From IMG/VR virus record IMGVR_UViG_3300021938_000096, positions 1-43,311 of that record: DNA of 43,311 bases. One strand, written 5' to 3'. The notes beneath the pieces were generated by a model that made no database searches, had not been told where the DNA came from, and saw nothing but the letters and a program-made list of their open reading frames with translations. Positions within the stretch are counted from its first letter, which is position 1. Each line of letters starts with the position of its first letter. Shown here one piece after another: positions 1,267 to 43,311 of the stretch. Both the position numbers and the translations under genes were made by a program. This DNA comes from a virus.

Positions 1267-4200
1267 TCATGCCGCAAGTTTAGATAGGCTTTCTGCCACT
1301 TTGTTTTTTTGCATTTGAATTGTCCTGATTAAATCCCGCTTCGCATCGGGCTCGATATTTGATCTTTCAATATACCGGATGCGTTCATTGAGTTTTGCCT
1401 CAGCCCGCTTCACTTGTTCAACATGCTTGTATTTAATCAAGTCATCGTTGTGTGATTCTTTGAACTCAGTGGCTTCTTGGAATTTGCCTTGCTTAACAAG
1501 GTCGCGGTAAGTTCCATACGACTGTTCAATTTCTTTTGCCTGTGTGTACATCTGGGTAACATACCGGCTGGGTGCGTCGCGCAAGTCGCTGACCATATTG
1601 CCCGTTGCAACTTTCCACATATCAGCCGATGCATGCTCTGCTTGACCTGTAGCGGGTCGCGCAACAATATCCGAAGCGCCGACCACAAACGATCCAAGCC
1701 AGCCGAAATAACCTCGTAGCATATGGTCTATTTGAACGGGGCTTAGTGATTCTTTGCCAACAATGCCAGTTGCTGCGTTCAGGCTGGTGCTGAGCCCTCG
1801 GGCAACCATGCTGGTTCTATCGTTGAACCGATATTCTGGCCTTAGATTTTCTTGCCCCATCGTTTCAATCGGTCGTCCTGTGAAGCTGTCTTTGTTGGCG
1901 TAGATATCAACAATAGGTTTGATAAGTTGAGGCACGGGATTCATGCTCAGGTTGTCACCCAATAAGGTCAGTACCTGATTCAAAAATCGCTTGTTGGTCA
2001 TTTCCTTGTCAAAGGCCAATTCAAAACCGCGTTCTGCCAGTGTGGCAATTGCACCAATTTCAAATGGCTTAGGGATGCGGAAAGCCGTACCGCCGAACTT
2101 GAACCACCAGAAATTATTGCGGTCTGATTCTTCGCGTTTTTTCCAATCGTCGTCATCGCCATAAGCGGCCAACAAGCCAATGGATAAAACAGCCGTTGCA
2201 CCCAGCACAATGCCGAAGCGCTTGGGGTCTTCCTTGGCGGACTTGCCCAATTTGTAAAGACCCTGGAGGCGGGCATTGAAGAACGGAACAACTTGGGTCA
2301 AGAAGCGTATGGTCGCAAAACTTCCCTGCATGGAGAAGTCCATCAGGTCACGCGCCTGCAAGCTGGCTTCTGCATGGTTCATGCCTTGCTTGACAAGCTG
2401 GTCATACAGGCTTGCCCGGTTAATCGCTTCACCACGATTACCAAGTTCGTTGTACGCCGTGACGCCCGGTTCAATGAACTTGCGGTAAAACGCTTTGACC
2501 TTGTGATCGTTGTTCAAAATGGTAGAGGCATCAACGCCGGATTCAACCAGTGCTTGTATGCGTTTGGCCTCGCTGCCTTCCATCATCGTGCCAAAGTGAA
2601 TTGTTCCACCGCCCGCCAGCAAACGGAAATAGGCGTCGCTTTTAGGATCGGTCAGCTTCCATCCCTCTGCAATGTTCTTGGCCGGGTTGTAGCTCAGGTT
2701 ACCAGTTCCGATGGCCTGGACAGAATCTCGAATCAGGTTGCGCACCTTGAAGAACGGGGAGGCCGTCACGCCAATCGTGAGCGCATGCTTCATTGAACTC
2801 ATGGCATTCATGACGGGATTGCGCATGCCTGCATATTCAAGCGATGTCAGCGCCGTCAATAGATAAGGACCGTCCTCTTGGTCGATCAGGCTATATCGTT
2901 TTTGACCACCGTCCATGAACCATACAACTCCCTGTTTGTTGTGAACAGACGATGCCATTTCTGCCAGCGTCGATTGATTCCCGCCCATCGCTGCACCCAC
3001 CGCCTCAGCGGCCTCAATCGTGGCCTTGGCAGCCCTGTTCTTGGCGGCTGCATCCAGGAGGTGAGCCCAGTTCATCAGCGTGTTGTCGAGCAGGTCAGCA
3101 TTGAGTGCACCCTTGCCGCCTTTGAGTGACTTGAATGCCTCTTGCCTGACAACGCTGCCTTTGATGTTCATACCTCTTACACCGCCTTCATCGGCAACGC
3201 GGTAAAAAGGAACGTAAAACTCATGCTCCCAGTACTTTCTTGATTCTGGGTCAATCAAGCCGGATTGCTCGGCCATGTCCAGAATGTTCTTGTTGAAACC
3301 ATTGAACACGCGCAAAGCATCGCCATAAATCAAAGACCTATCCCGCGTTACTTGTCCTGCTTTGGGGCCAGTCTGGATGGTGTAGCCAAAATCCGTGGTG
3401 CCTTCGGACAGTGTTTTCAGGGCTGCAATATCTTCTTTGGTAAACAGATTTTCTTTGCCGTCACCCATCAATCGTTCGGCGCGGTTCGCTGCAACCCAGC
3501 GCATGAAGTCATGGTGTTCACCTTGTAATGGAATCAGCAGCTTATCAACAACACCGCCTTTATTGGCTTGGTCAAAGTCATACACACCATCGGTTAACTT
3601 GAGTTTTCCGCCTTGCAAGAAAGCTTCGAATGCACCGCTTGCACCTTTGGCAAGTCGCATCAAGCCATAGGCTTTTTTATCCAAGTCCTTGACGGGCGCG
3701 AATTGATCGACAATGCCCTGCGCCATTTTCTTGCCCGCATCTTTCCACAGTAATTTGGCGCGCTCTTTCAGCGTGGGCTGGGTGACATCGAAGCCAACAT
3801 TCTTCATGGCTTTCAATTGTTCAGGGGTATGTTTTCGCGATGTTTGACCAACAATGGAGGATCGGCTGAAATAAATGTCAGGGTTCGTGCTGCCACTATC
3901 CGGCGCGGTTGGTTCATTCGGAATTACGGTATCGAGATCATCGTTGACGTAAGCCGATTTGATTTTCTTCAAGGCATCAGAAAATGTGTCTCTGCTGTAG
4001 CCATCGTCTGGCGCAAGGTTGATGTCTGTTTCGCCAAAATGATGCCCACGGTTCACGTTAGAGTGATCGGAAATCCTGACATTGATAATCACATCTTTTT
4101 CGTACCCATCCGCCGTCTTGCCAAAAGATTTGGTGATGGTGACGTACTTATCCCCGCGCCCGGAAACTTTGTAGCCCTCAGCTTCTGCCATATCGGCGAA

Positions 4201-7200
4201 TGCAAGCGACTTGGCTGTGATTTCTGTCGATTCGTCAATATCTCCTTCACCGCCATGTTTTTCAAACGCGGCTTGGGCATCAAATGCAGCGCCCGGTGTT
4301 GAGTCATCGGTAGATTTCCCCTGCTTCATAAATGAAGGAACAAACCCACCATTCATTGTTTTGCTTGAATGCGAGATGGCCGCATAGGCCAACATGGTGA
4401 TGTCGTCATTGTTCAGGTACTTGCCACCAATGCCGAACTCGTTGAACAAGAATGCCTTGATCTTGGAAATCAGTTGTTTGACGAGCGTCATCTCGGGATG
4501 GTTCTGCACCAGATAGGCTAAGTTTTCCTCAGGAATCTGACTTGGGCGAACTGAGTTTTTCTCGGCTTCGTCAAAGGCCGCTTGAACGGCTTTGTTCCCG
4601 GCGCGACGCATCACGTCCAGGCGCTTTATCACGCTGTCGTAACTCTTTTTACCCAACATGCGTTCAAAGCCATAGTGAACGCCGACCTCGTGCAAGACCA
4701 AGCCTTTAACCATGTCCTCCGTGAGATTGCTCAGGACGGCATAAGTCTTGTCGGTTTTAGGGTCATAGAAGCCATAGACAACATCGTTATCCCGCAAGAA
4801 TGGGACGATATGGTTAGGCAGGTTGGATTGGTTTGCCAGCGGGACAACTACACCTTTGGCAATCAGCTTATCAGCAACTTTCGCGCCGAATGCTTTTGTC
4901 AGTGCTTGGTTGAATTGAGTTTGGCTAAGTCCTCTTGGTACAGACTTTACACGAACTCCGCTTTCTGTTTTGGCGTAGAAGATGCCTTTGCTGGATGCAG
5001 GAAATTGACGCCCGACATCCACAAGCTTAGCCAGTATTCCGCTTCCAGGCCTTCCATCGCTGCTTTTTTCGCTTTCTTCGCGTACCAAAGCACTGAGGAC
5101 AGCGTTTCTTTTGTACGTTGCGATCCCAGCACCGCTCTCAGGTCTGCGTCCAACTTCGACAATTTGTCGTATGGCATCGTCATCAAAGACTCCACCCTCT
5201 GAATCTCGGAAGGTTCCAGTTGATAGGTCAAAGGTAAGAAGGTTCGCGCCTGCATGATCGAGTGACTCCATTGATACTTGAATGAGTGACTCGATATTAG
5301 CCAAGTCATCGCCGTATGTCCAGTGCAAAGGTGGAACGCCAATGGAACTTGCGCCTTCAAGCTGACGCGGGTGTGGTGCCAAGTGGCGTGTCGTACCAAA
5401 CTTCAAGGCTGACGATAACATGTTCTCGGTGCGCCTGCGCATGGCTGAATTACTCAATCCAGCTGGGTCTCCAATCAGAATACGCCCCGTATTGTGTGCA
5501 AATGTCGCCGCGATGTTGTAAACTTTTGCGCCATATCCCCCCTCTTTTAACGTGGAAACGTCAATGTAAACGTCCTCCATATCATCAGGAATTGACTCCG
5601 CATTGTCACCAGGTCGATCCGTAGTGACCTGCATATCACCTTCTTCATTTTGAGATATGCCGTAGGCCTGTGGGCCGTAGGGATTGACGCTACGCACCAT
5701 CAGTCGCGCCTTCGCGCCGTTAGGCATGGTAAGTACATAATTCTTCACCAAGCCAGGATATGCGACTGCCTTAACAGTAATGCTTGGGTCAGTGTCTGCT
5801 GCAATGCCTTGCACCGTCGTCTTATCAGATTTCGGCAAAGCAAAAATATCATCATTCTCGCTCAGTGCTTTCAATGCATTTTGTTCGCGTTGGACTGACT
5901 CTCGACTGAACATCGGCCCATCTGCAATCTTCATGCCTTGCTCTGCTTCTGCCACGCCAGTTTTAACATTGATTGAATCCAGTGGGTTGACATCTACTTT
6001 TTTGAGCGCAGCAGCAATGTTCTGGCTGGCGGTTACCCCTGCCATGCTGGTGGGTGTGCTCAGTTCTCCACCATGCACAATGATGGCTGCACCGGCGTTT
6101 GATTGGCTGATAGCGCGGTAGATAGCATTCAACTCGCCGGTGCTTCTCAATGGGCCGTGCATGCCTTGAGTTATGGGCATCCATCCAGCAATAGCGTGGT
6201 GGGCATTCAATAGCAAAATTCCAGGCCCATTGTTCTTGTTGTAGAGCGACTTGGCGGCAATCTTGGCATCTAATGGGCTATTGATCTCGTAGGCGGGCGC
6301 ACCCTTTCCTAGTTGGCGTTCTACCACGGGAACGGTTGCACCTTGTTTGGCGGATGGGATAGGACGATGCAGAGTTGCGTCACCGTGCCCGCGCTCATCA
6401 ACGTAGCTATACTTATCGCCTGCAACAGCCATGATTCCCATGGGCTCGATGCCGCTTCCGCGAAACACGTCGGACAGCGATTGATTCAGCAGCATATCGG
6501 CGCGTGACAGTGATGGGTTTCCGCTGGGGTGGTTGTGCGAAAACCATACGTGTGCAGCGCCGGGTATGCGTACCGCCTCGCCCATCAGGGTTGCCGGGTA
6601 AATTGAGGCTTGAGACAGCGCCCCTTTAAAACCGCCAATTACCGCGAGTGGCTTGCCATTTTTATCAGTGACAATTCCATCGAATCTTTCTACTGCCGAT
6701 TGGTAGAGGTAGCGGGTAGCTTGTGCTGCTTGTTCATGAGTTTGCACAAGGCTTGCGCCCAACTGTCGATCAGCCGTCTTACCCATGATGGTGTTGACGT
6801 AGAACGTGGCATTAGGCAAGTCTGTGTCGGATAGTGCGGCTGTGGGCTGTACGTCCCCACGTAACCCGGCGCGGTTGGATCGGCTGGGTTTAGTTTTTCC
6901 GGTTGGTGCGGGTAGTTCATTGCCAAAAAGATCGGTTGTGTAGTTGTCAGTGTAGTCTCGTTCAGTCTCATTTGCAACTTGGCCGCTATCCTCAATCCTG
7001 GATGGCTTTTCTTTGCTCACCAAATACAGTGGGTCATCCCTATATTCTGGGTTTGCATCTCGTGCCGTGTCGGTCAATGCAAACCGAATAGCGCTACCGG
7101 CATGAACCACGGGCTTGCCGTCTTTCATAGGCATCACGTCCAATCGGTCAAAGCGGGCGCTCCACGCGTAGTATTCAACCCCATTACTATCTATGACAAT

Positions 7201-10200
7201 TGCGCCGCGAGTCAGGTTTGCAGCCTGATCTGGGGTGATTGGCTTTTCTTCCTTGGCCGGGTACGCCGCTTTCAATTCATCTGGCGTGATGTCCCCTGAC
7301 TTGACATCTTTCAAGACGTCGATCCGCTCTTTGCCGGTGACATTGGCGGCGTCAAGAATCTCGGTGGCTTGCGCTGCAGGTGCTTTGTTGGATTTTGCCT
7401 TCTTCAGTTTATCCGCTGCGCCGTAAGCGTCTATGCTGTAGTCAGAATGTAGCACCCAATTTTGGTCATCCCCACGATCTTTGGGTTTGAGATTGGCAGA
7501 AACCATTTCTGTTTTCATCGCCTTTTGTGGCGATTCTTCACCACGAAACCAAACGCCATCCTCAAATTTGGCATAGGTTCCGTTGTCAAGTTTGTAAATT
7601 GCATTCTTGGACGGCGCTTGTTTGGCGTTACCTTGATTTGACTCAGCAAAGATACCGCCCTGACCCGATAGTGAATCCTCGGCGTTTTGACCTAATGCAA
7701 AGTTTTCAGCACTGGCGTATTGCCGGGCTTTTATTTCCACGGCATCGCGTTCAGCCTTTGCCTTCTTTTCGGCGTCAACGTCAGCTTTGATCTTTGCCTT
7801 TTCTTCATTGTCGGCGCGTTCCTGCTGCGCCAGAATATCGGCGCGTGTCGGTGAAACTAAGCCGTGTGCTTCATCGGTGTGGATGTTTCCCGCTTGGCTT
7901 TGTTGGCCCATATCCGCGCCAGAATTTCCACGGCCTGCGGCGATGGATTCTTGTTCGGCGATGGCAGTTTGGATGGCGTGTTTTGCGAGTTCATAGTATT
8001 CCTGATTAGATACGCTTTCGTTATGTTCTGCAACCTCCATCCGCACAGATTCTGAATCAATCCCTAGTGCGTCAAGTTGCGAAGACAGGGCAGCTACTTC
8101 CTGTTGAATCTCGGGGTTGGCTTCGGCAAAGCCTGTGCCTTGAAGATCGGCCTCAATAATGCCTTCACCCGCCATAGATGCAAACGGGTCATAGTCCTCA
8201 CTTTGTGCGGCATCTTGCTCTGCGGCCAGGTAATCGGCAAAGCGCTGATCGGCTTCGCGTCCGGCCATGAGTTCCGTATCCTGCGGGGTGTAGCGCGGGC
8301 TATTCAGGGATTGCTTGATGAGGTTACGGGCTTCTTCGTGGCTGTCGCCTTCGTTCAAGTAGCCTGATTCGATCAATCGCTCAGTGGCTTGCTCGATGGT
8401 CATCCCACGGCCAGCGCCTGCAAACAGACTGCGGTTGCCAATGCGAACATTGCCTTCCATTCCCATATCGGCGCGGGTACTGGGGGATAACATACCTTCA
8501 CCAGCAATAAATTCATGCGCAGCGATCGGTGTTCCGGCTTGTCCTGTGGTCGCCAAACCCAAACGGCGGGCCGCTTTTTCTTGGGCGGCAAGTTGTTTCT
8601 CGGTCTTGGGGGCCAAGGCGAATCCACCGGCCACCTTCACCACGCGTAACATGGGCTGCTGTTTCTTGGCGCTGTCGGCAGACTTCTTCGACTTGAAGGG
8701 TTTGCCGCCTTCACGTAACGGCGCGCTATCAACGCCCAAGTGTTCTTGGTCATGCGCTTCACGCTCGGCCTGAATTTCAGCCAGCGACTGGGTGATCTTT
8801 GCACGGGTCGATATCGGGATGGTCGCCCACTTCTTTTCTAGCAGCTTGCGGACTGTGATGTCGCCGCCTTTGGTTGCCATGCCTGCACGTCTAATGGCAT
8901 CGGTGCGAGCGCTCGCGTCCAAACTGTCCCAGTACTCAATCGGCCCACTGCCCGCTTGGGCGGGCGCATCACCCGAGACTGCGGGGGCTTGACTTTCAGC
9001 TACAGGCTCGGCAGTAGGTTGCTCCGAATTTACTTGTCGTTCGGTTCCTCGTTCCGACGTCGATTGTTCCGCTGCTGGCGCGATGGTTTTGGCGGACGTA
9101 ATGACATCGGTGGTTCCTTCAATATTGGGTTTAGTCGTGGCTTTCTGCATAGCCAACTGCATAGCCGTAGGCGCTTCTGCAATCTTCGCCGCTTCTAGTG
9201 CGCGTCCTTGGGCTTGCAGATCATTCAAATCACGGTCATTGGAAAACTCGCGTTGCAGTTCTGCCCGCAAGGTTTCCAAGTCGCGGCCTTCGCGTGTAAC
9301 GAGGTCGTTCAACTCATAGGCTTTTTCTGTGCCAACTTTAGGCAAAGTTGCAATGTCAGGATACGCCGACAACAACCCCGCTTCACCGCCATAGGCTTGG
9401 GCCGATTGCTGATCCCGAATAGGGGTTCCCGCTTTGACCGCATCTATGAAGTTGGTGACGGCTTGCGCGGACAGTACAGAATTGTCAGCGGCTTTGATGG
9501 CGTCATCAACGGTCGCGGCTTTGCCGATGTCGGCAATGTGGGTGATGGGGGCTTTTTGTGGGCTGCTTAGAATCCCGCCTGCGCTGCTGTGCAATACACC
9601 GCCTAGCATACCTTGGGCAGCGGCGTCGAGTGCATTGCCTTGGTTCGCTTCGGATTGATTCCATGGCAGCATATTGGCTTCATTGCCTTTGCCGTATTCC
9701 TCGATTCCAGTTTGTCCGTATTCGGTCAAACCTTCAATCGGCGCGGCTACCAATGAACTTGTCCCGGCACGGGTTAGCTTGCCTTTGATACCCGGCATTT
9801 CTCCCAGTTTCTTGCTGATGGCAAGTTTGCCTTTAAGGGCTTCAAGGCCCAACATGCGTTCGCCAAACTCAGCCGTTCCCGCCAAGAAAGTAGCGCCCAG
9901 GGCCTTGGCAATTTCTTCACCGGTTAATGCGCGGTTTTCATCCACGGATTTCTTGGCAATACCGCCGCCGATTTCACCGCCTTCCATACCGTAAGCACTA
10001 GCGCCCGTCGCTGTGGCTGCGCCAATCCGCCCGGCTACATTGGCCGTAGCCGCTTTCGCCAGTTGATCTGCTGAGAGTTTTGCGCCTTCTTCGGTAGCAG
10101 CCAATGCAGCGGCTTCTTTCGACACCATGCCACTGGCTAACTTTTCAACCGTCGCTTTCAAACCCGCTTTTCCGATCACGGAACCGAGTCCAGCCGTCGC

Positions 10201-10608
10201 CAGCATCTGCGCCGCTTGTCCGCCCGCATAGCCAATGCCGTGCGTCAACCAATCCACCATAGCGCCGAAGTCGCCTTCTTTGGCTTTGTCGTACGAATAG
10301 GTAAATGAATCGGATGGCAGTGCATCCTTTTGCATTTTGTCCTCATACGCTTGATAGCCTTTAACGCCCGCCTTTTTGATGCCAGTCGCAATACCGCCTT
10401 CACCGAAGGCTGTTTCTGCCGTTGCACCCGCACCCGCCATCAATCCATACCCGAGTTGCGGGAGTTGCTGGAATGCTTCTTTTACCCCTCGGCCTGCATT
10501 GGCAACGATGCCAACCGGTGCCGCTGGTTTTTCGGGTACAAACTTATCCCATTCATTGAACGTGGAAAAGTCCTGTGGCGCTTCCGGTTTGAATGTTGAC
10601 CAATCCAT
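1267..10608 (-). CDS. Giant multidomain virion-associated protein with RadC-like JAB motif and LPD38-like C-terminus
   Basis: This single intact frame encodes 3113 residues, over a fifth of the window. The N-terminus carries a short repeated phrase (DWSTFKPEAPQDFSTFNEWD) followed by Ala/Gly-rich amphipathic stretches (about 30-260), then long Gln/Glu/Ala-rich linkers. Around residue 1358 is HNHPSGNPSLSRAD, matching the metal-binding HxHPSG..SxxD motif of RadC/JAB domains; a second, degenerate JAB-like segment follows near 1436-1550. HEVGVH sits at 1973-1978. From about 2270 to the end the text resembles the LPD38-type polyvalent protein domain, with one hydrophobic segment (IVLGATAVLSIGLLAAYG, near 2800). 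By analogy with giant proteins of Bcep22-like podophages it is likely an internal, ejected virion protein combining DNA-delivery and effector-type activities; that role is inferred. It is the last gene of the late region. Confidence 0.9.
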   Translation of the reverse strand: MDWSTFKPEAPQDFSTFNEWDKFVPEKPAAPVGIVANAGRGVKEAFQQLPQLGYGLMAGAGATAETAFGEGGIATGIKKAGVKGYQAYEDKMQKDALPSDSFTYSYDKAKEGDFGAMVDWLTHGIGYAGGQAAQMLATAGLGSVIGKAGLKATVEKLASGMVSKEAAALAATEEGAKLSADQLAKAATANVAGRIGAATATGASAYGMEGGEIGGGIAKKSVDENRALTGEEIAKALGATFLAGTAEFGERMLGLEALKGKLAISKKLGEMPGIKGKLTRAGTSSLVAAPIEGLTEYGQTGIEEYGKGNEANMLPWNQSEANQGNALDAAAQGMLGGVLHSSAGGILSSPQKAPITHIADIGKAATVDDAIKAADNSVLSAQAVTNFIDAVKAGTPIRDQQSAQAYGGEAGLLSAYPDIATLPKVGTEKAYELNDLVTREGRDLETLRAELQREFSNDRDLNDLQAQGRALEAAKIAEAPTAMQLAMQKATTKPNIEGTTDVITSAKTIAPAAEQSTSERGTERQVNSEQPTAEPVAESQAPAVSGDAPAQAGSGPIEYWDSLDASARTDAIRRAGMATKGGDITVRKLLEKKWATIPISTRAKITQSLAEIQAEREAHDQEHLGVDSAPLREGGKPFKSKKSADSAKKQQPMLRVVKVAGGFALAPKTEKQLAAQEKAARRLGLATTGQAGTPIAAHEFIAGEGMLSPSTRADMGMEGNVRIGNRSLFAGAGRGMTIEQATERLIESGYLNEGDSHEEARNLIKQSLNSPRYTPQDTELMAGREADQRFADYLAAEQDAAQSEDYDPFASMAGEGIIEADLQGTGFAEANPEIQQEVAALSSQLDALGIDSESVRMEVAEHNESVSNQEYYELAKHAIQTAIAEQESIAAGRGNSGADMGQQSQAGNIHTDEAHGLVSPTRADILAQQERADNEEKAKIKADVDAEKKAKAERDAVEIKARQYASAENFALGQNAEDSLSGQGGIFAESNQGNAKQAPSKNAIYKLDNGTYAKFEDGVWFRGEESPQKAMKTEMVSANLKPKDRGDDQNWVLHSDYSIDAYGAADKLKKAKSNKAPAAQATEILDAANVTGKERIDVLKDVKSGDITPDELKAAYPAKEEKPITPDQAANLTRGAIVIDSNGVEYYAWSARFDRLDVMPMKDGKPVVHAGSAIRFALTDTARDANPEYRDDPLYLVSKEKPSRIEDSGQVANETERDYTDNYTTDLFGNELPAPTGKTKPSRSNRAGLRGDVQPTAALSDTDLPNATFYVNTIMGKTADRQLGASLVQTHEQAAQATRYLYQSAVERFDGIVTDKNGKPLAVIGGFKGALSQASIYPATLMGEAVRIPGAAHVWFSHNHPSGNPSLSRADMLLNQSLSDVFRGSGIEPMGIMAVAGDKYSYVDERGHGDATLHRPIPSAKQGATVPVVERQLGKGAPAYEINSPLDAKIAAKSLYNKNNGPGILLLNAHHAIAGWMPITQGMHGPLRSTGELNAIYRAISQSNAGAAIIVHGGELSTPTSMAGVTASQNIAAALKKVDVNPLDSINVKTGVAEAEQGMKIADGPMFSRESVQREQNALKALSENDDIFALPKSDKTTVQGIAADTDPSITVKAVAYPGLVKNYVLTMPNGAKARLMVRSVNPYGPQAYGISQNEEGDMQVTTDRPGDNAESIPDDMEDVYIDVSTLKEGGYGAKVYNIAATFAHNTGRILIGDPAGLSNSAMRRRTENMLSSALKFGTTRHLAPHPRQLEGASSIGVPPLHWTYGDDLANIESLIQVSMESLDHAGANLLTFDLSTGTFRDSEGGVFDDDAIRQIVEVGRRPESGAGIATYKRNAVLSALVREESEKSSDGRPGSGILAKLVDVGRQFPASSKGIFYAKTESGVRVKSVPRGLSQTQFNQALTKAFGAKVADKLIAKGVVVPLANQSNLPNHIVPFLRDNDVVYGFYDPKTDKTYAVLSNLTEDMVKGLVLHEVGVHYGFERMLGKKSYDSVIKRLDVMRRAGNKAVQAAFDEAEKNSVRPSQIPEENLAYLVQNHPEMTLVKQLISKIKAFLFNEFGIGGKYLNNDDITMLAYAAISHSSKTMNGGFVPSFMKQGKSTDDSTPGAAFDAQAAFEKHGGEGDIDESTEITAKSLAFADMAEAEGYKVSGRGDKYVTITKSFGKTADGYEKDVIINVRISDHSNVNRGHHFGETDINLAPDDGYSRDTFSDALKKIKSAYVNDDLDTVIPNEPTAPDSGSTNPDIYFSRSSIVGQTSRKHTPEQLKAMKNVGFDVTQPTLKERAKLLWKDAGKKMAQGIVDQFAPVKDLDKKAYGLMRLAKGASGAFEAFLQGGKLKLTDGVYDFDQANKGGVVDKLLIPLQGEHHDFMRWVAANRAERLMGDGKENLFTKEDIAALKTLSEGTTDFGYTIQTGPKAGQVTRDRSLIYGDALRVFNGFNKNILDMAEQSGLIDPESRKYWEHEFYVPFYRVADEGGVRGMNIKGSVVRQEAFKSLKGGKGALNADLLDNTLMNWAHLLDAAAKNRAAKATIEAAEAVGAAMGGNQSTLAEMASSVHNKQGVVWFMDGGQKRYSLIDQEDGPYLLTALTSLEYAGMRNPVMNAMSSMKHALTIGVTASPFFKVRNLIRDSVQAIGTGNLSYNPAKNIAEGWKLTDPKSDAYFRLLAGGGTIHFGTMMEGSEAKRIQALVESGVDASTILNNDHKVKAFYRKFIEPGVTAYNELGNRGEAINRASLYDQLVKQGMNHAEASLQARDLMDFSMQGSFATIRFLTQVVPFFNARLQGLYKLGKSAKEDPKRFGIVLGATAVLSIGLLAAYGDDDDWKKREESDRNNFWWFKFGGTAFRIPKPFEIGAIATLAERGFELAFDKEMTNKRFLNQVLTLLGDNLSMNPVPQLIKPIVDIYANKDSFTGRPIETMGQENLRPEYRFNDRTSMVARGLSTSLNAATGIVGKESLSPVQIDHMLRGYFGWLGSFVVGASDIVARPATGQAEHASADMWKVATGNMVSDLRDAPSRYVTQMYTQAKEIEQSYGTYRDLVKQGKFQEATEFKESHNDDLIKYKHVEQVKRAEAKLNERIRYIERSNIEPDAKRDLIRTIQMQKNKVAESLSKLAA

Positions 10609-39731: not shown

Positions 39732-40448
39732 TTATTCCCCAGTCTTTTTTGCTTCGGTTGATGATTTCTTCGCCAGATTCAAAAGAATCCGCCATGCTGT
39801 TGCAGCCACGATTGGTATTTGTCCATTGCCAGTTGCTCTAAGTCGCTCCATCCTATGGGCCATCCCATCAACCACTCGTGATTCATTGGGGTAGGTATCC
39901 CAAATACCGCTGTAAATGCACGGGCGCTTGGCCACTTTTGCATGCTCTGAGCTGTGTAGTTCGCTGTGCATGTCGGTGTATGCAAGTAGCCAATATCGCT
40001 TCCTAACATGGTCTGCACCCAAGTCTTTCGCGGATAGGGAAATGCATTTGGTTTGGTAACCCATCTGCTCGCAGTCGGTCGCTGCCGTTTCAATTGATCG
40101 TCTGCTGACGTTCTCGGCAAATACGTACCGGGGAGCGACATCTGCCACGATCCGTCGCATTTCCGGCCAGAGATCGTCTGCATTGTTTCTCCCAGAAGCT
40201 GCCGTGCTGTAGGCTTGGCACGGAAACCCGCCAGATACCACATCAACAATGCATCTCCATGGCTTTCCGTCAAAGGTGCGGACATCATCCCAAATCGGGA
40301 AGGGCGGGAGTAGTCCGTCATTTTGGCGAGCGATGAGTACACTTGAGGAGTACGAATCAATTTCAACTCCACAAATAGTGCGCCATCCAAGCAATTGGCC
40401 TCCGAGTATTCCACCACCAGCGCCCGCGAATAAAGCCAGCTCATTCAT
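39732..40448 (-). CDS. DNA cytosine-C5 methyltransferase (Dcm family, compact)
   Basis: The ATG at 40448 has GGGAG four bases upstream. The 238-residue product shows the family's ordered motifs: I, LALFAGAGGG (4-13); IV, SGGFPCQAYS with catalytic Cys77; VI, FAENVSRR (110-117); VIII, GADHVRKRYWLLAY; X, GNGQIPIVAATAW near the C-terminus. The target recognition region between VIII and X is only about 40 residues, shorter than in most Dcm enzymes. No partner restriction enzyme is visible, so it probably protects phage DNA from host restriction. A second open frame across it is a shadow. Confidence 0.9.
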   Translation of the reverse strand: MNELALFAGAGGGILGGQLLGWRTICGVEIDSYSSSVLIARQNDGLLPPFPIWDDVRTFDGKPWRCIVDVVSGGFPCQAYSTAASGRNNADDLWPEMRRIVADVAPRYVFAENVSRRSIETAATDCEQMGYQTKCISLSAKDLGADHVRKRYWLLAYTDMHSELHSSEHAKVAKRPCIYSGIWDTYPNESRVVDGMAHRMERLRATGNGQIPIVAATAWRILLNLAKKSSTEAKKTGE

Positions 40449-40449
40449 T

Positions 40450-40635
40450 TCACTCCCCATTTTTCGGCACTGCGCCGGATGATTTCTGCGCCAGCATCTC
40501 GCGTTTCAGATCGTCGGCTATGGCTGCCCATAGTCCCGACTTGTCTGCTGCCATTTCCTGCGCTCTTGCCCAGGCATAGGCTTTGTCCATTTGGGCTATC
40601 CATACGAGATGGGCTAAGTGGTCGGTGTAGGTCAT
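40450..40635 (-). CDS. Small conserved-looking phage protein (61 aa)
   Basis: The product MTYTDHLAHLVWIAQMDKAY continues with AWARAQEMAADKSGLWAAIA and DDLKREMLA. This HL...A.AWARAxELxADxSGLWxxIAxxL pattern is one I associate with short proteins in phages and prophages of Burkholderiales. It lies one base from the methyltransferase and overlaps its upstream neighbour by four bases. No function is known to me. Confidence 0.75.
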   Translation of the reverse strand: MTYTDHLAHLVWIAQMDKAYAWARAQEMAADKSGLWAAIADDLKREMLAQKSSGAVPKNGE

Positions 40636-40850
40636 ATTGCATCTTTTTCTGGCCTTGCAGCGCTTCTCTCAATCAATACTTCACGATGTCTATCGGCCAT
40701 TTCGGTGCAAACTTTAAACGTTCCTACCATTAGCACAATGTAATCGTGCGATGTGTCAGCCATAAAGCTCTCTTGGTTTTTCGCCAGCGATTCGACCAAG
40801 TTTTGAACATGAAAGCAATTTTGCTTCTTACTCCATTCAAGACAGTACAT
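40632..40850 (-). CDS. Hypothetical protein (72 aa)
   Basis: The ATG shares a base with the helicase stop (TAATG), indicating coupling. The product MYCLEWSKKQNCFHVQNLVE continues with SHDYIVLMVGTFKVCTEMAD and RHREVLIERSAARP. It has two cysteines and a short strand-helix pattern but no recognised motif. Function unknown. Confidence 0.65.
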   Translation of the reverse strand: MYCLEWSKKQNCFHVQNLVESLAKNQESFMADTSHDYIVLMVGTFKVCTEMADRHREVLIERSAARPEKDAI

Positions 40851-42226
40851 TACATTCCCCTTTGTTTAAATTGATCCTGCTTTTTTGCTGGTGGTTCGCC
40901 ATTCCATTGGCCGAATTTTGTTTGTTCACCGACATAAAAAAGGTGAACATCGCCACACCGACCTTGCCGGTTTTTGGATACCCTGAGCAATGCGTAGTTG
41001 GCGTATTCAGCCCCGAAGTCTGGGTTTGCCATGATGGGTCGGTGAATGAAGGCAACCACGTCTGCATCCTGCTCAATAGCCCCAGAGTCACGCAGTTCAT
41101 GCAGTCCAGGGGGATGATTACCTTTATCGGCTGCACCCCGGTTCACTTGGGCCAAGCACACGACCACAATGCCCATGTCTTTCGCCATCGTTTTCAACCC
41201 CCGGCTGATTTCCTCGATCTGGTAGGCGCGGCTCACTTTGGAATCCATGCCTGACATCAGTCCGATGTAGTCCACGATCAACACGTCAAGCCCTTTTCGG
41301 CGCTTAAGCGCCTTGGCCTTGGCCTTGACTTGCAGGATGTTCAATCCGCCCTGCTCAACCACGTAGAACCGGCGCGACTTCGATGCCTCCACTGCGTCAA
41401 CAATCCGGTCATATTGAAGCCCGCGTGTGGGTCGCTTGATATCCGAGATTGAAACCGATCCGAGAATAGCCGCCTGCCTGTCGCTCACGTCGGCCCGGCT
41501 CATCTCCATACTGATAAACCCGACGCTGTAGGTTTTAGCCATGCTCAGGCCGATTGTCAGACCCAGAGCAGATTTACCCATGCTTGGCCGCGCACCGATC
41601 ACCACCATGTTTCCACGCTGTAGCCCTCCGTCGAGCATTTCATCCAAGTCGTGGATTCCTGTGGCCATGCCAACAATCGAGCCGTTCTCGCGCTGTTCTA
41701 TCAAGTCCAGGTGTTTGATGGCTGATTCATGGGCATCGATCCATTCGCCAAAGTCGTCCTTGTCCTCAAGTTCGATCAAAGCGCTTGAGACTTGATCGAT
41801 CCTTTCTTGAATCGGCGTGGTTTCGAAAGCCAGCGTCTGTACCAAAGCGCTCATGCCGTACAGTTTACGGCTCTTGAAGGCATCAATCACGCGCTGGACA
41901 TGCTTGGCTATGCCTCGGGCTCCATGGTCGTTGTAGCGGGCTATTTCAAGCACTTCGGTAAGCTGCATCGAACCGTTGAAGGATTCGGCCACGGAAATGA
42001 TGTCGTACGGCCCTTTGGCGTGCTGTTTCCGGCATTCTGCAAAAATAGCCCGCAAACAGTCATCAGAAAAGTGTTCTGGCTGCAACTTGTCGCATTCGTC
42101 GTGAGCTTGCGGAAAGTTCAGCAGAATGGATACCACCGACATCTCGGATGGCTTCACGCCAACGGTGTTTGCCGTCGATTTCATGTAGCTCACAAAATCA
42201 ATCTCATCATCAACAATCGTAGTCAT
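40850..42226 (-). CDS. dnaB: DnaB-like replicative helicase
   Basis: The 458-residue product has the DnaB two-domain plan. The N-terminal helical domain includes SEMSVVSILLNFPQAHDECD. The RecA-like domain has Walker A GARPSMGKS (211-219), GFISMEMSRADVSDRQAAIL (motif H1a region), Walker B VLIVDYIGLM (315-324) and the Gln motif IVVVCLAQVNRG. The C-terminal HELRDSGAIEQDADVVAFIH and the ALLRVSKNRQGRCGDVHLFY arginine finger region are present. It unwinds DNA at the fork. It overlaps the initiator gene by four bases, the usual initiator-helicase pair. Confidence 0.95.
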   Translation of the reverse strand: MTTIVDDEIDFVSYMKSTANTVGVKPSEMSVVSILLNFPQAHDECDKLQPEHFSDDCLRAIFAECRKQHAKGPYDIISVAESFNGSMQLTEVLEIARYNDHGARGIAKHVQRVIDAFKSRKLYGMSALVQTLAFETTPIQERIDQVSSALIELEDKDDFGEWIDAHESAIKHLDLIEQRENGSIVGMATGIHDLDEMLDGGLQRGNMVVIGARPSMGKSALGLTIGLSMAKTYSVGFISMEMSRADVSDRQAAILGSVSISDIKRPTRGLQYDRIVDAVEASKSRRFYVVEQGGLNILQVKAKAKALKRRKGLDVLIVDYIGLMSGMDSKVSRAYQIEEISRGLKTMAKDMGIVVVCLAQVNRGAADKGNHPPGLHELRDSGAIEQDADVVAFIHRPIMANPDFGAEYANYALLRVSKNRQGRCGDVHLFYVGEQTKFGQWNGEPPAKKQDQFKQRGM

Positions 42227-43014
42227 GCTGCCACCTTGTTTTCGTAGTTGCCTTGGACTACTTTTGAAAAGTTATCCGCCTTCACCAGCCACCCAAGGTC
42301 ACAAGACCATTTACCTTCACGCCCGGTTAGAAAATCACTTTCGCCAACGTAGGCAAAGAATCTAGAAAACCAATCCAGCCCCTCGGCCTTGTCAGTAGCG
42401 TAACGCTCGCCTGTCTTTTTCTTGGCCGTCAGTAGCCATGCCCAACGCTGGCGTAAAGCTGTTGCCCTAGCACCAGACCATAGCTCTGCCTTCGGCTGGG
42501 GGAGGTTTGGCAGGTGTTGGGCATAAAGCTCGATGATCTCAACGTGCGGGCAGGTCGGCGGCGTAGCCGTTGACGAAGAAGCTTTAGCTTCTTTATTTTC
42601 TATAGGTGAAGGTGAAGGTGAAGGGCATTCGTCAAGCAATGCTTGTAGCATGCTTGTAGCATTGCTTTTAGCATCATTACCCCATCTTTTTGATGCTGCA
42701 TTGACGGCTCGCTTGTGATTGCGTACTTTATTGTCAATAGCGTTAGTTTTTTCTTGCTCTATGCGAGTGTGAATGAGCATGCCATCGCTATGCTTGAAGA
42801 ATGCTCGAAGTGTGCTTGAAGCATTGCTCCAAGCATCGCCAAGCCTGCTTATAATTGATAGTCGAACGTCATCATCTGGAATCGGGCCAGACTTCCAATA
42901 ATGGAGAATGAGCATCAAATATGCGCCATGCTCAGCAGGAGTTAAGTGCATGGTGTCAGACAAATAATCGGCCACGTAAAATGGCATCCAAATGTCAGTT
43001 TTCCCCGGCGCCAT
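42223..43014 (-). CDS. DUF1376-family replication initiator / replisome organiser
   Basis: The 263-residue product starts with the DUF1376 pattern DIWMPFYVADYLSDTMHLTP followed by AEHGAYLMLILHYWKSGPIP, a winged-helix-like module of phage replication proteins. A low-complexity linker (CPSPSPSPIENKEAKASSST) leads to a Trp-rich C-terminal part (GLDWFSRFFAYVGESDFLTG and SCDLGWLVKADNFSKVVQGN) that probably recruits the helicase, as in lambda O/P or DnaT-type systems. Two blocks of 11-bp direct repeats lie within the gene (42639-42672 and 42790-42845), suggesting that the protein binds its own coding region as an origin. It overlaps the helicase gene by four bases. Confidence 0.8.
   Translation of the reverse strand: MAPGKTDIWMPFYVADYLSDTMHLTPAEHGAYLMLILHYWKSGPIPDDDVRLSIISRLGDAWSNASSTLRAFFKHSDGMLIHTRIEQEKTNAIDNKVRNHKRAVNAASKRWGNDAKSNATSMLQALLDECPSPSPSPIENKEAKASSSTATPPTCPHVEIIELYAQHLPNLPQPKAELWSGARATALRQRWAWLLTAKKKTGERYATDKAEGLDWFSRFFAYVGESDFLTGREGKWSCDLGWLVKADNFSKVVQGNYENKVAA
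42639..42672. repeat. Iteron cluster 1 (three tandem repeats)
   Basis: ATGCTTGTAGC at 42639-42649 is repeated perfectly at 42650-42660 and imperfectly as ATTGCTTTTAGC at 42661-42672. It lies in the coding sequence of the DUF1376 gene just after the Pro/Ser linker. A tandem perfect 11-mer is unusual in coding DNA. Confidence 0.7.
42790..42845. repeat. Iteron cluster 2 (four to five tandem repeats)
   Basis: Consecutive 11-12-bp units read ATGCTTGAAGA (42790-42800), ATGCTCGAAGT (42801-42811), GTGCTTGAAGC (42812-42822), ATTGCTCCAAGC (42823-42834) and a weaker ATCGCCAAGCC (42835-42845). The consensus is close to that of cluster 1 (ATGCTTGWAGC), with the two clusters about 120 bases apart. A moderately AT-rich stretch near 42719-42765 lies between them. 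Confidence 0.7.
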
Positions 43015-43211
43015 TATTCGGCGTCCTTTAATTCTTCATCATGGGTTTCAATGCTTTTTTTGGCTTCCCGCAAAGCCTTGATAAGCAAATTAACATTAGA
43101 TGGCTGAATGGCGATAAATGAAGGCCCATCAAGCGGGTCATTTTGTGATATTGATATTGAACCACCTTTGTTTACAAAAACATCAATGCCTTTTTGTTCT
43201 GGGATTACCAT
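43014..43211 (-). CDS. Small hypothetical protein (65 aa)
   Basis: The product MVIPEQKGIDVFVNKGGSIS continues with ISQNDPLDGPSFIAIQPSNV and ends with a helix (NLLIKALREAKKSIETHDEE). GGA lies eight bases before the ATG. It is the first gene downstream of the hairpin and terminator at 43225-43300 and overlaps the DUF1376 start by one base. Function unknown; a regulator or accessory replication protein is possible by position. Confidence 0.7.
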   Translation of the reverse strand: MVIPEQKGIDVFVNKGGSISISQNDPLDGPSFIAIQPSNVNLLIKALREAKKSIETHDEELKDAE

Positions 43212-43224
43212 TTATTTTTCCAAT

Positions 43225-43300
43225 AAAAAAGCCTAGCTCAGAATCTCATCCTTGCGGAAGTTGGGGAACGGAATAGTACCGTCAGATTCTGAGCTAGGCC
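43225..43300 (-). ncRNA. Predicted compact RNA: 16-bp stem, three-way junction, terminator
   Basis: On the minus strand GCCTAGCTCAGAATCT (43284-43299) pairs perfectly with AGATTCTGAGCTAGGC (43231-43246), followed by TTTTTT (43225-43230). The 37-base interior can form two small hairpins, ACGG-TACTATT-CCGT and CTTCC-GCAA-GGATG (GNRA-type loop, one mismatch), giving a three-way junction. A -10-like TATAGT lies just upstream. The unit is either a small RNA or an attenuator for the gene at 43211. Confidence 0.55.
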
Positions 43301-43301
43301 C

Positions 43302-43307
43302 ACTATA
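43302..43307 (-). promoter_or_regulatory. -10-like box before the terminal RNA
   Basis: TATAGT on the minus strand matches the -10 consensus at five of six bases and would start transcription near the first base of the hairpin stem. The -35 would lie beyond the window edge, so the promoter cannot be confirmed here. Confidence 0.35.
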
Positions 43308-43311
43308 AAAC

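Follow-up and report, generated by a model that had tools for sequence, protein, structure and literature searches.

A probable replication origin inside the DUF1376 initiator gene of a virus, marked by two repeat blocks and a hairpin

We analyzed a 43,311-bp virus record (IMGVR_UViG_3300021938_000096; hereafter, the window) and identified on its minus strand two adjoining genes that could participate in DNA replication. The first encodes a 263-aa protein that matches Pfam DUF1376 (PF07120) over residues 9-88 (E 8e-20, 71.5 bits against a gathering cut-off of 30.1) and whose PHROG matches carry the names primosomal or replication initiation protein. Pfam returned only DUF1376 and a sub-threshold TraM for this protein and no match to Phage_rep_O (PF04492), the lambda O family. 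Directly downstream, its start overlapping the end of the initiator gene, lies a gene for a DnaB-type replicative helicase with 32% identity to gp12 of phage L across 267 positions. A DnaB-like helicase had been proposed as the neighbor in an earlier note on this DNA, and the Pfam DnaB_C match (E 1.3e-65) bears this out. Among relatives, the ORFs adjoining DUF1376 genes (n = 133) included Pfam matches to DnaB_C (15), lambda P (12) and IstB/DnaC-type proteins (8) and, in PHROGs, P-like loaders (22), DnaB-like (19) and DnaC-like (8) proteins. The features of the locus are:

40850 to 42226, minus strand: DnaB-type replicative helicase gene
42223 to 43014, minus strand: DUF1376 replication initiator gene, with the putative origin inside
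42576 to 42593, minus strand: hairpin with a 7-bp stem and the loop C-TAAA-G on the coding strand
42582 to 42604, minus strand: A+T-rich stretch, a candidate unwinding element, overlapping the 5' arm and loop of the hairpin
42604 to 42621, minus strand: hexamer repeat, TCACCT three times on the coding strand (TRF)
42633 to 42673, minus strand: block B, near-palindromic 11-12-bp repeats in linker codons about 114-128 (TRF)
42791 to 42837, minus strand: block A, near-palindromic 11-12-bp repeats in DUF1376-domain codons about 60-75 (TRF)
42805 to 42840, minus strand: codons 59-70, encoding the helix predicted to recognize DNA in the winged-helix domain (AlphaFold2, pLDDT 95-98)

Elsewhere in the window we noted a C5-cytosine DNA methylase gene near the replication genes (39732-40460, Pfam E 2.1e-20) and a very long minus-strand ORF of 3,113 codons (1267-10608). 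The minus strand also carries an inverted repeat of two perfectly matched 16-bp arms around a 37-nt loop, with a T6 tail (43231-43299), just upstream of a 65-aa ORF (43014-43211). Its RNA fold (-37.6 kcal/mol, z -4.9) is terminator- or attenuator-like; it had no match in Rfam, and a 21-base piece of the loop had no exact match in viral contigs.

Within the initiator gene, seven units lie within two mismatches of TGCTTSWAGCA (starts at 42628, 42640, 42651, 42663, 42791, 42813 and 42825), and a perfect 11-mer, ATGCTTGTAGC, stands twice in tandem at 42639-42660, in block B. All five exact copies of TGCT-N3-AGCA in the window fall inside this gene. The gene contains 115 near-repeat pairs, compared to a mean of 31.0 and a maximum of 66 in 2,000 synonymous-codon shuffles that kept the protein, and its repeat score (z 9.0) compares with scores of at most 2.8 for 24 other ORFs tested. 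The two blocks of 11-12-bp units and the perfect tandem 11-mer described in the earlier note are thus confirmed: both blocks are recovered by TRF and the repeats exceed chance. That note had missed three properties of the region. The repeat unit is almost its own reverse complement, so that direct and inverted repeats are indistinguishable; one of the blocks (A) codes for part of the DUF1376 domain; and the linker block (B) is followed by hexamer repeats, an A+T-rich stretch and a hairpin. Two matches to the DnaA-box pattern TTWTNCACA occur in the window (10895 and 28129; 3.74 expected), none of them near the gene. A promoter scan found 2 sites where 3.1 were expected, and Rfam gave no match in 40000-43311. 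The cumulative GC skew has its minimum at the window end and was discounted as evidence for an origin, because most long ORFs run on one strand.

Relatives were fetched with an alignment of nine DUF1376 proteins and comprised the best 80 of 588 viral-contig matches, the best 80 of 181 bacterial-genome matches and annotated phages, a selection that makes the survey lean towards the nearer kin of the window. Our own profile recognized a DUF1376 gene in 175 of the 185 sequences. Once genes shorter than 450 nt, a duplicate (L001) and near-copies were left out, 144 non-redundant genes were retained; later tests, which needed longer genes or an aligned W62 column, used 143, 140, 139, 135 or 130 of them. 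As controls we took the longest other ORFs on the same strand of the same loci, which may include spurious ones. Near-repeats in the 144 DUF1376 genes were 3.52 times the synonymous-shuffle expectation, compared to 1.41 times in 114 control ORFs, and the excess was significant (p<0.05) in 58% of the DUF1376 genes versus 12% of the controls, which leaves about 42% of the surveyed genes without a significant repeat excess. It was strongest at codons 110-149 (ratio 2.3-2.9) and second strongest at codons 50-69 (2.1-2.3); codons 10-29 gave a ratio of 2.2-2.3 too, at low coverage. TRF alone identified two blocks at the same places of the gene in Leptolyngbya phage Lbo-JY16 and, with a different motif, in Pseudomonas phage UFJF_PfDIW6. 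The repeat motif itself differs between phages despite the same gene positions. The ydaU gene of Rac-SA53 (L008) has no word common to A and B and a modest near-repeat excess; Rac is described as carrying an active origin, oriJ (PMC3945230).

Two motif classes could be drawn by eye, class I (TGCT..AGCA or AGCA(N)TGCT) and class II (AACG-NN-CGTT). When relatives were compared at positions with the same amino acid, using classes assigned from block B alone, the excess of codon identity was +0.52 (class I) and +0.43 (class II) in block B, +0.11 and +0.35 in block A, and at most +0.05 elsewhere in both classes. Conservation at the DNA level, which the earlier note had proposed to look for in relatives, is therefore present, with the repeats at the same gene positions and the codon-identity excess concentrated in both blocks. 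Units of block B are spaced by 11 bp (13 cases) or 12 bp (19 cases). These observations bear on the already disfavored proposal that the repeats arose by replication slippage in a tolerant linker and have no function. In its favor, the linker that contains block B and the hexamers is modeled with low confidence (pLDDT about 51-55, residues 121-150) and the hexamers preserve the reading frame, but block A sits within the folded domain (pLDDT 95-98) and the 11-bp spacing breaks the frame (lag 11 is found in 0.19 of the genes, where 0.005 is expected). The confinement of excess codon identity among distant relatives to the blocks, the occurrence of class II block-A sites in two reading frames and the agreement of the A and B motifs within genes also argue against slippage, which we regard as very improbable.

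The AlphaFold2 model of the initiator (76 sequences, mean pLDDT 86.8) places block A in the codons of a putative DNA-reading domain. Its predicted elements (helix 26-42, strand residues at 45-46, helices 49-56 and 59-70, strands 74-76 and 79-81) follow the winged-helix order helix-strand-helix-helix-strand-strand, an order that would make helix 59-70 the one that recognizes DNA. Comparison with solved structures returned mainly winged-helix proteins, with weak scores (Foldseek best E 0.19); VIA gave similarly weak matches to ORC chains (best Z 6.0), followed by MarR-type regulators and 4pta 'MDR initiator', and a search of solved structures by sequence found none up to E 1. The motif learned from block B matched the codons W62 to W62+4 in 27 of 139 genes (3.0 expected) and W62+5 to W62+9 in 30 of 139 (2.9 expected), with 12 in the next best five-codon bin. 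Thus, one of the iteron blocks extends over codons of the helix that presumably reads the DNA. In block A, class II sites occur in two reading frames (10 and 4 cases), which speaks for the DNA as the conserved thing. The helix sequence also differs by class (mostly DAWSNA.. versus N[DE]RW..), a difference for which the DNA motif alone accounts. Two relatives (L153 and L109) carry class-I repeats in B and none in A, and their helix at 59-70 is different and more basic; the helix is, therefore, not a simple code for the motif.

Where block A carries a class motif, block B nearly always carries the same one. Class I was found in the A blocks of 23 of 143 genes, 22 of which were also class I in B, and class II in 11 of 143, all 11 of which were class II in B. 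The class is thus the same in B for 33 of the 34 genes with a class motif in A, and in none of the 143 genes were the two blocks of opposite class. The agreement extends to individual words: pairs of words shared by A and B within genes numbered 1,218 in 140 genes, compared to 464 with swapped partners (maximum 712 of 2,000) and a mean of 387 (maximum 463) under synonymous shuffles. The observed sum was reached in 4 (class I), 1 (class II) and 0 (unclassed) of 2,000 swaps, and the unclassed genes agree with the classed ones on this sharing. Block A is not general: no more than 34 of 143 genes have a class motif there, and the sharing of words between A and B reaches significance (p<=0.01) in 33 of 140. 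A tree of the 143 rows, itself poorly resolved, held 33 class changes, and the joint A/B switches amounted to five independent pairs on supported branches, too few to reach significance. As read from these sequence comparisons, the motif appears to drift between phages and blocks A and B to drift together.

The limited distribution of block A also bears on the alternative that block B alone is the origin and block A an operator at which the initiator or a repressor holds down transcription of the initiator gene. Consistent with this proposal, block A is absent from most relatives and from lambda O, phage L gp18 and P22 gp18, whose origins are known or annotated; further, many genes have B but no A, and only 1 of the 34 genes with a class motif in A lacks that class in B. 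Block A is, however, located in the middle of the gene rather than at a promoter, and the scan detected no promoter-like site on the coding strand there. An operator function for block A is, in our estimate, unlikely, though well short of improbable.

The elements behind block B recur in the relatives as well. A 6-bp unit repeated about three times or more was present in 78 of 143 DUF1376 genes (10.5 expected) and in 3 of 114 controls (2.6 expected), and the A+T content rises behind the hexamers in 75 anchored genes, an effect about half of which is explained by the amino acids. An excess of stems was first noticed at codons 121-170 of the relatives, with hairpin centers enriched near the blocks. 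The hairpins have a common tetraloop, made of T, then AA, AG or GA, then A or C (TRRM), closed by C-G in 26 of 30; such a hairpin is found in 29 of the 135 genes of sufficient length (1.4 expected), and the one at 42576-42593 is the only hairpin of the C-TRRM-G type with a stem of at least 6 in the window. Using a test independent of pairing, in which every CT(AA|AG|GA)[AC]G hexamer was taken and scored for a stem of at least 6, we found such stems at 22 of 76 hexamers in codons 121-190 and at none of 1,492 elsewhere, comprising 133 from other parts of the genes, 731 from the flanking DNA and 628 from the opposite strand. The stems vary between most phages, and whole hairpins measure 14-34 nt. 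Among DUF1376 genes, the hairpin accompanies a window-like C-terminus more often (9 of 22) than other C-termini (16 of 113, p 0.006), and its occurrence does not depend on the block-B class. In 17 of 26 cases a further hairpin follows, a suggestive excess over the 9.6 expected. From the fixed order of the elements behind block B, and from the loop's preference for one strand, it seems that the hairpin forms either on the coding strand once this is opened or in a transcript.

Every loop opens with a stop trinucleotide as its first three bases (TAA, TGA or TAG, never TGG), placed out of frame and in one fixed frame in 29 of 30; in frame, it would end the protein. A loop of this kind could act as a primase start trinucleotide or as a boxB-like RNA for an antiterminator. 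By eye we also noted, behind block B or the hexamers of five relatives (L003, L018, L098, L057 and L178), parts or the whole of a word resembling GATCAAAAGC..TTGTGATCAGCAAGCTGA. This word stands in genes of different iteron class or of none, and holds a second hairpin type with a CAAG loop (8 cases).

A further alternative places the function of the palindromic blocks in the mRNA, where pairing between A and B or local stems would control the translation or decay of the initiator message. What the proposal can draw on is the palindromic nature of the units, which makes A and B inverted repeats of one another as well (arms of 29 nt, 79% complementary), and the enrichment of hairpin centers near the blocks. 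A tandem spacing of 11-12 bp is, however, the helical repeat of DNA, and in phage L gp18 the same arrangement is built from direct, non-palindromic repeats. Nor did Rfam return a match or the segment behind block B (42540-42640) fold unusually (z -0.98 as DNA and -1.72 as RNA). We consider an action of the blocks in the message improbable, if less so than slippage.

The hairpin is not confined to DUF1376 genes. It ends the annotated origin of P22, occurs in phage L gp18 with a stem of 10, and is found twice in the DUF6291-type initiator of Aeromonas phage phiA005. Contigs found with P22 gp18 contained it in 63 of 80 cases; after removal of redundancy it was present in 9 of 19, with the loops TAAA or TAAC, and none of 67 hexamers on the other strand had the stem. 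It was absent from the initiators of lambda (O), Stenotrophomonas phage SOVA965 and Marinitoga virus 2, the last two of which do have near-repeats. Among loci retrieved with a DUF6291 query, 1 of 10 non-redundant ones had the hairpin, and this locus (L275) was matched by its C-terminal part; the hairpin does not, therefore, follow the DUF6291 N-domain. In two Aeromonas phage initiators (L015:3-680 and L268:1412-2100), the first of which matches DUF6291, SDSDSD is encoded by numerous hexamers of the GATAGT type, and two C-TRRM-G hairpins follow one another, one with the loop TAAC and one with TGAC.

We conclude that the DUF1376 gene quite probably holds the replication origin of the phage, in the style of lambda O and P22 gene 18, with a protein that would bind the repeats and deliver the adjacent DnaB-type helicase. 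The locus has the features of a lambda-type intragenic origin, namely putative sites inside the initiator gene, an A+T-rich tract and a helicase gene downstream. As we infer the mechanism, the winged-helix DUF1376 protein would bind the repeats of block B, which come about once per helical turn, and also block A, where present, about 120 bp upstream of B. The nucleoprotein complex would then melt the adjacent hexamer and A+T-rich stretch, and the DnaB-type helicase that the phage itself encodes in the next gene would be delivered by the C-terminal domain of the initiator. A broader proposal is more tentative and, in our judgment, somewhat less likely to be right than wrong. In a subset of DUF1376 phages, the origin would be partly written in the codons of its own reading helix, so that reader and site share about 40 bp and block B must follow when the motif changes. 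Added to this would be an undescribed strand-specific origin hairpin that spans initiator types (DUF1376, P22 gp18, phage L gp18 and the DUF6291-type of phiA005), with a free stem and a C-T(AA/AG/GA)(A/C)-G loop that could serve as the entry point of primase or helicase on opened single-stranded DNA or as a bound transcript element.

If the preferred reading holds, DUF1376, a 'domain of unknown function' that numerous phages and prophages carry (one scan gave 588 viral-contig stretches), gains a testable role as an origin-binding initiator, and the start of replication becomes predictable from sequence alone. The codons of block A would clearly exemplify the constraint on a DNA-reading helix that is encoded by its own binding site, and would offer a natural experiment on the joint change of specificity of initiator and origin. 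The hairpin, which also ends the annotated origin of a classical system, P22, would count as a new element conserved among origins. With respect to known intragenic phage origins, we regard block A and the hairpin as the new parts. In the open-access literature, none of the papers found for DUF1376 concerned replication origins by title, and we found nothing describing block A or the hairpin, which for open-access sources alone is no proof of absence.

The closest parallels are other phages with iterons inside their initiator genes. In lambda, the origin is described within gene O, with an A+T-rich tract beside the iterons and the helicase-loader gene next to it (PMC7466680). The parallel with the O iterons drawn in the earlier note stands for block B, which, like those iterons (codons 117-144 of O), lies behind the DNA-binding domain; it fails for block A, which has no lambda counterpart. 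The two systems differ further in that O matches PF04492 while the window protein belongs to DUF1376, in that the O iterons are 18 bp and the window units 11-12 bp, and in that O carries neither iterons in its DNA-binding domain nor a C-TRRM-G hairpin. The lambda-O family could not be surveyed in the same way, because all relatives found were 99-100% copies, and these 80 loci were left out. The initiators of lambda, P22 and L are described as carrying different iterons inside their own genes (PMC8022706). According to the same source, P22 and phage L resemble the window in having iterons within the initiator gene 18 and the DnaB-type helicase gene 12 next, and the repeats of phage L are 11 bp long; we can add the C-TRRM-G hairpin behind the iterons of both. 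By contrast, gp18 of phage L has no DUF1376 match and its repeats are direct rather than palindromic, and neither P22 nor L has repeats in the gp18 DNA-binding domain. The window protein and phage L gp18 aligned by BLASTP at E 0.19, and a C-terminal profile built with both listed P22 gp18 at 22.4 bits and did not list lambda O. In SPP1, gp38 binds direct repeats within gene 38 at oriL, beside an A+T-rich element (PMC6316719), but this phage has a second origin outside the gene and a separate loader, gp39. The repABC plasmids also have an origin within a coding sequence, repC, and need an A+T-rich region (PMC3155836); they differ from the window in being plasmids and in that this source reports no iterons in repC. 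For lambda and SPP1, steps that parallel the mechanism proposed here are described as established (PMC7466680, PMC6316719).
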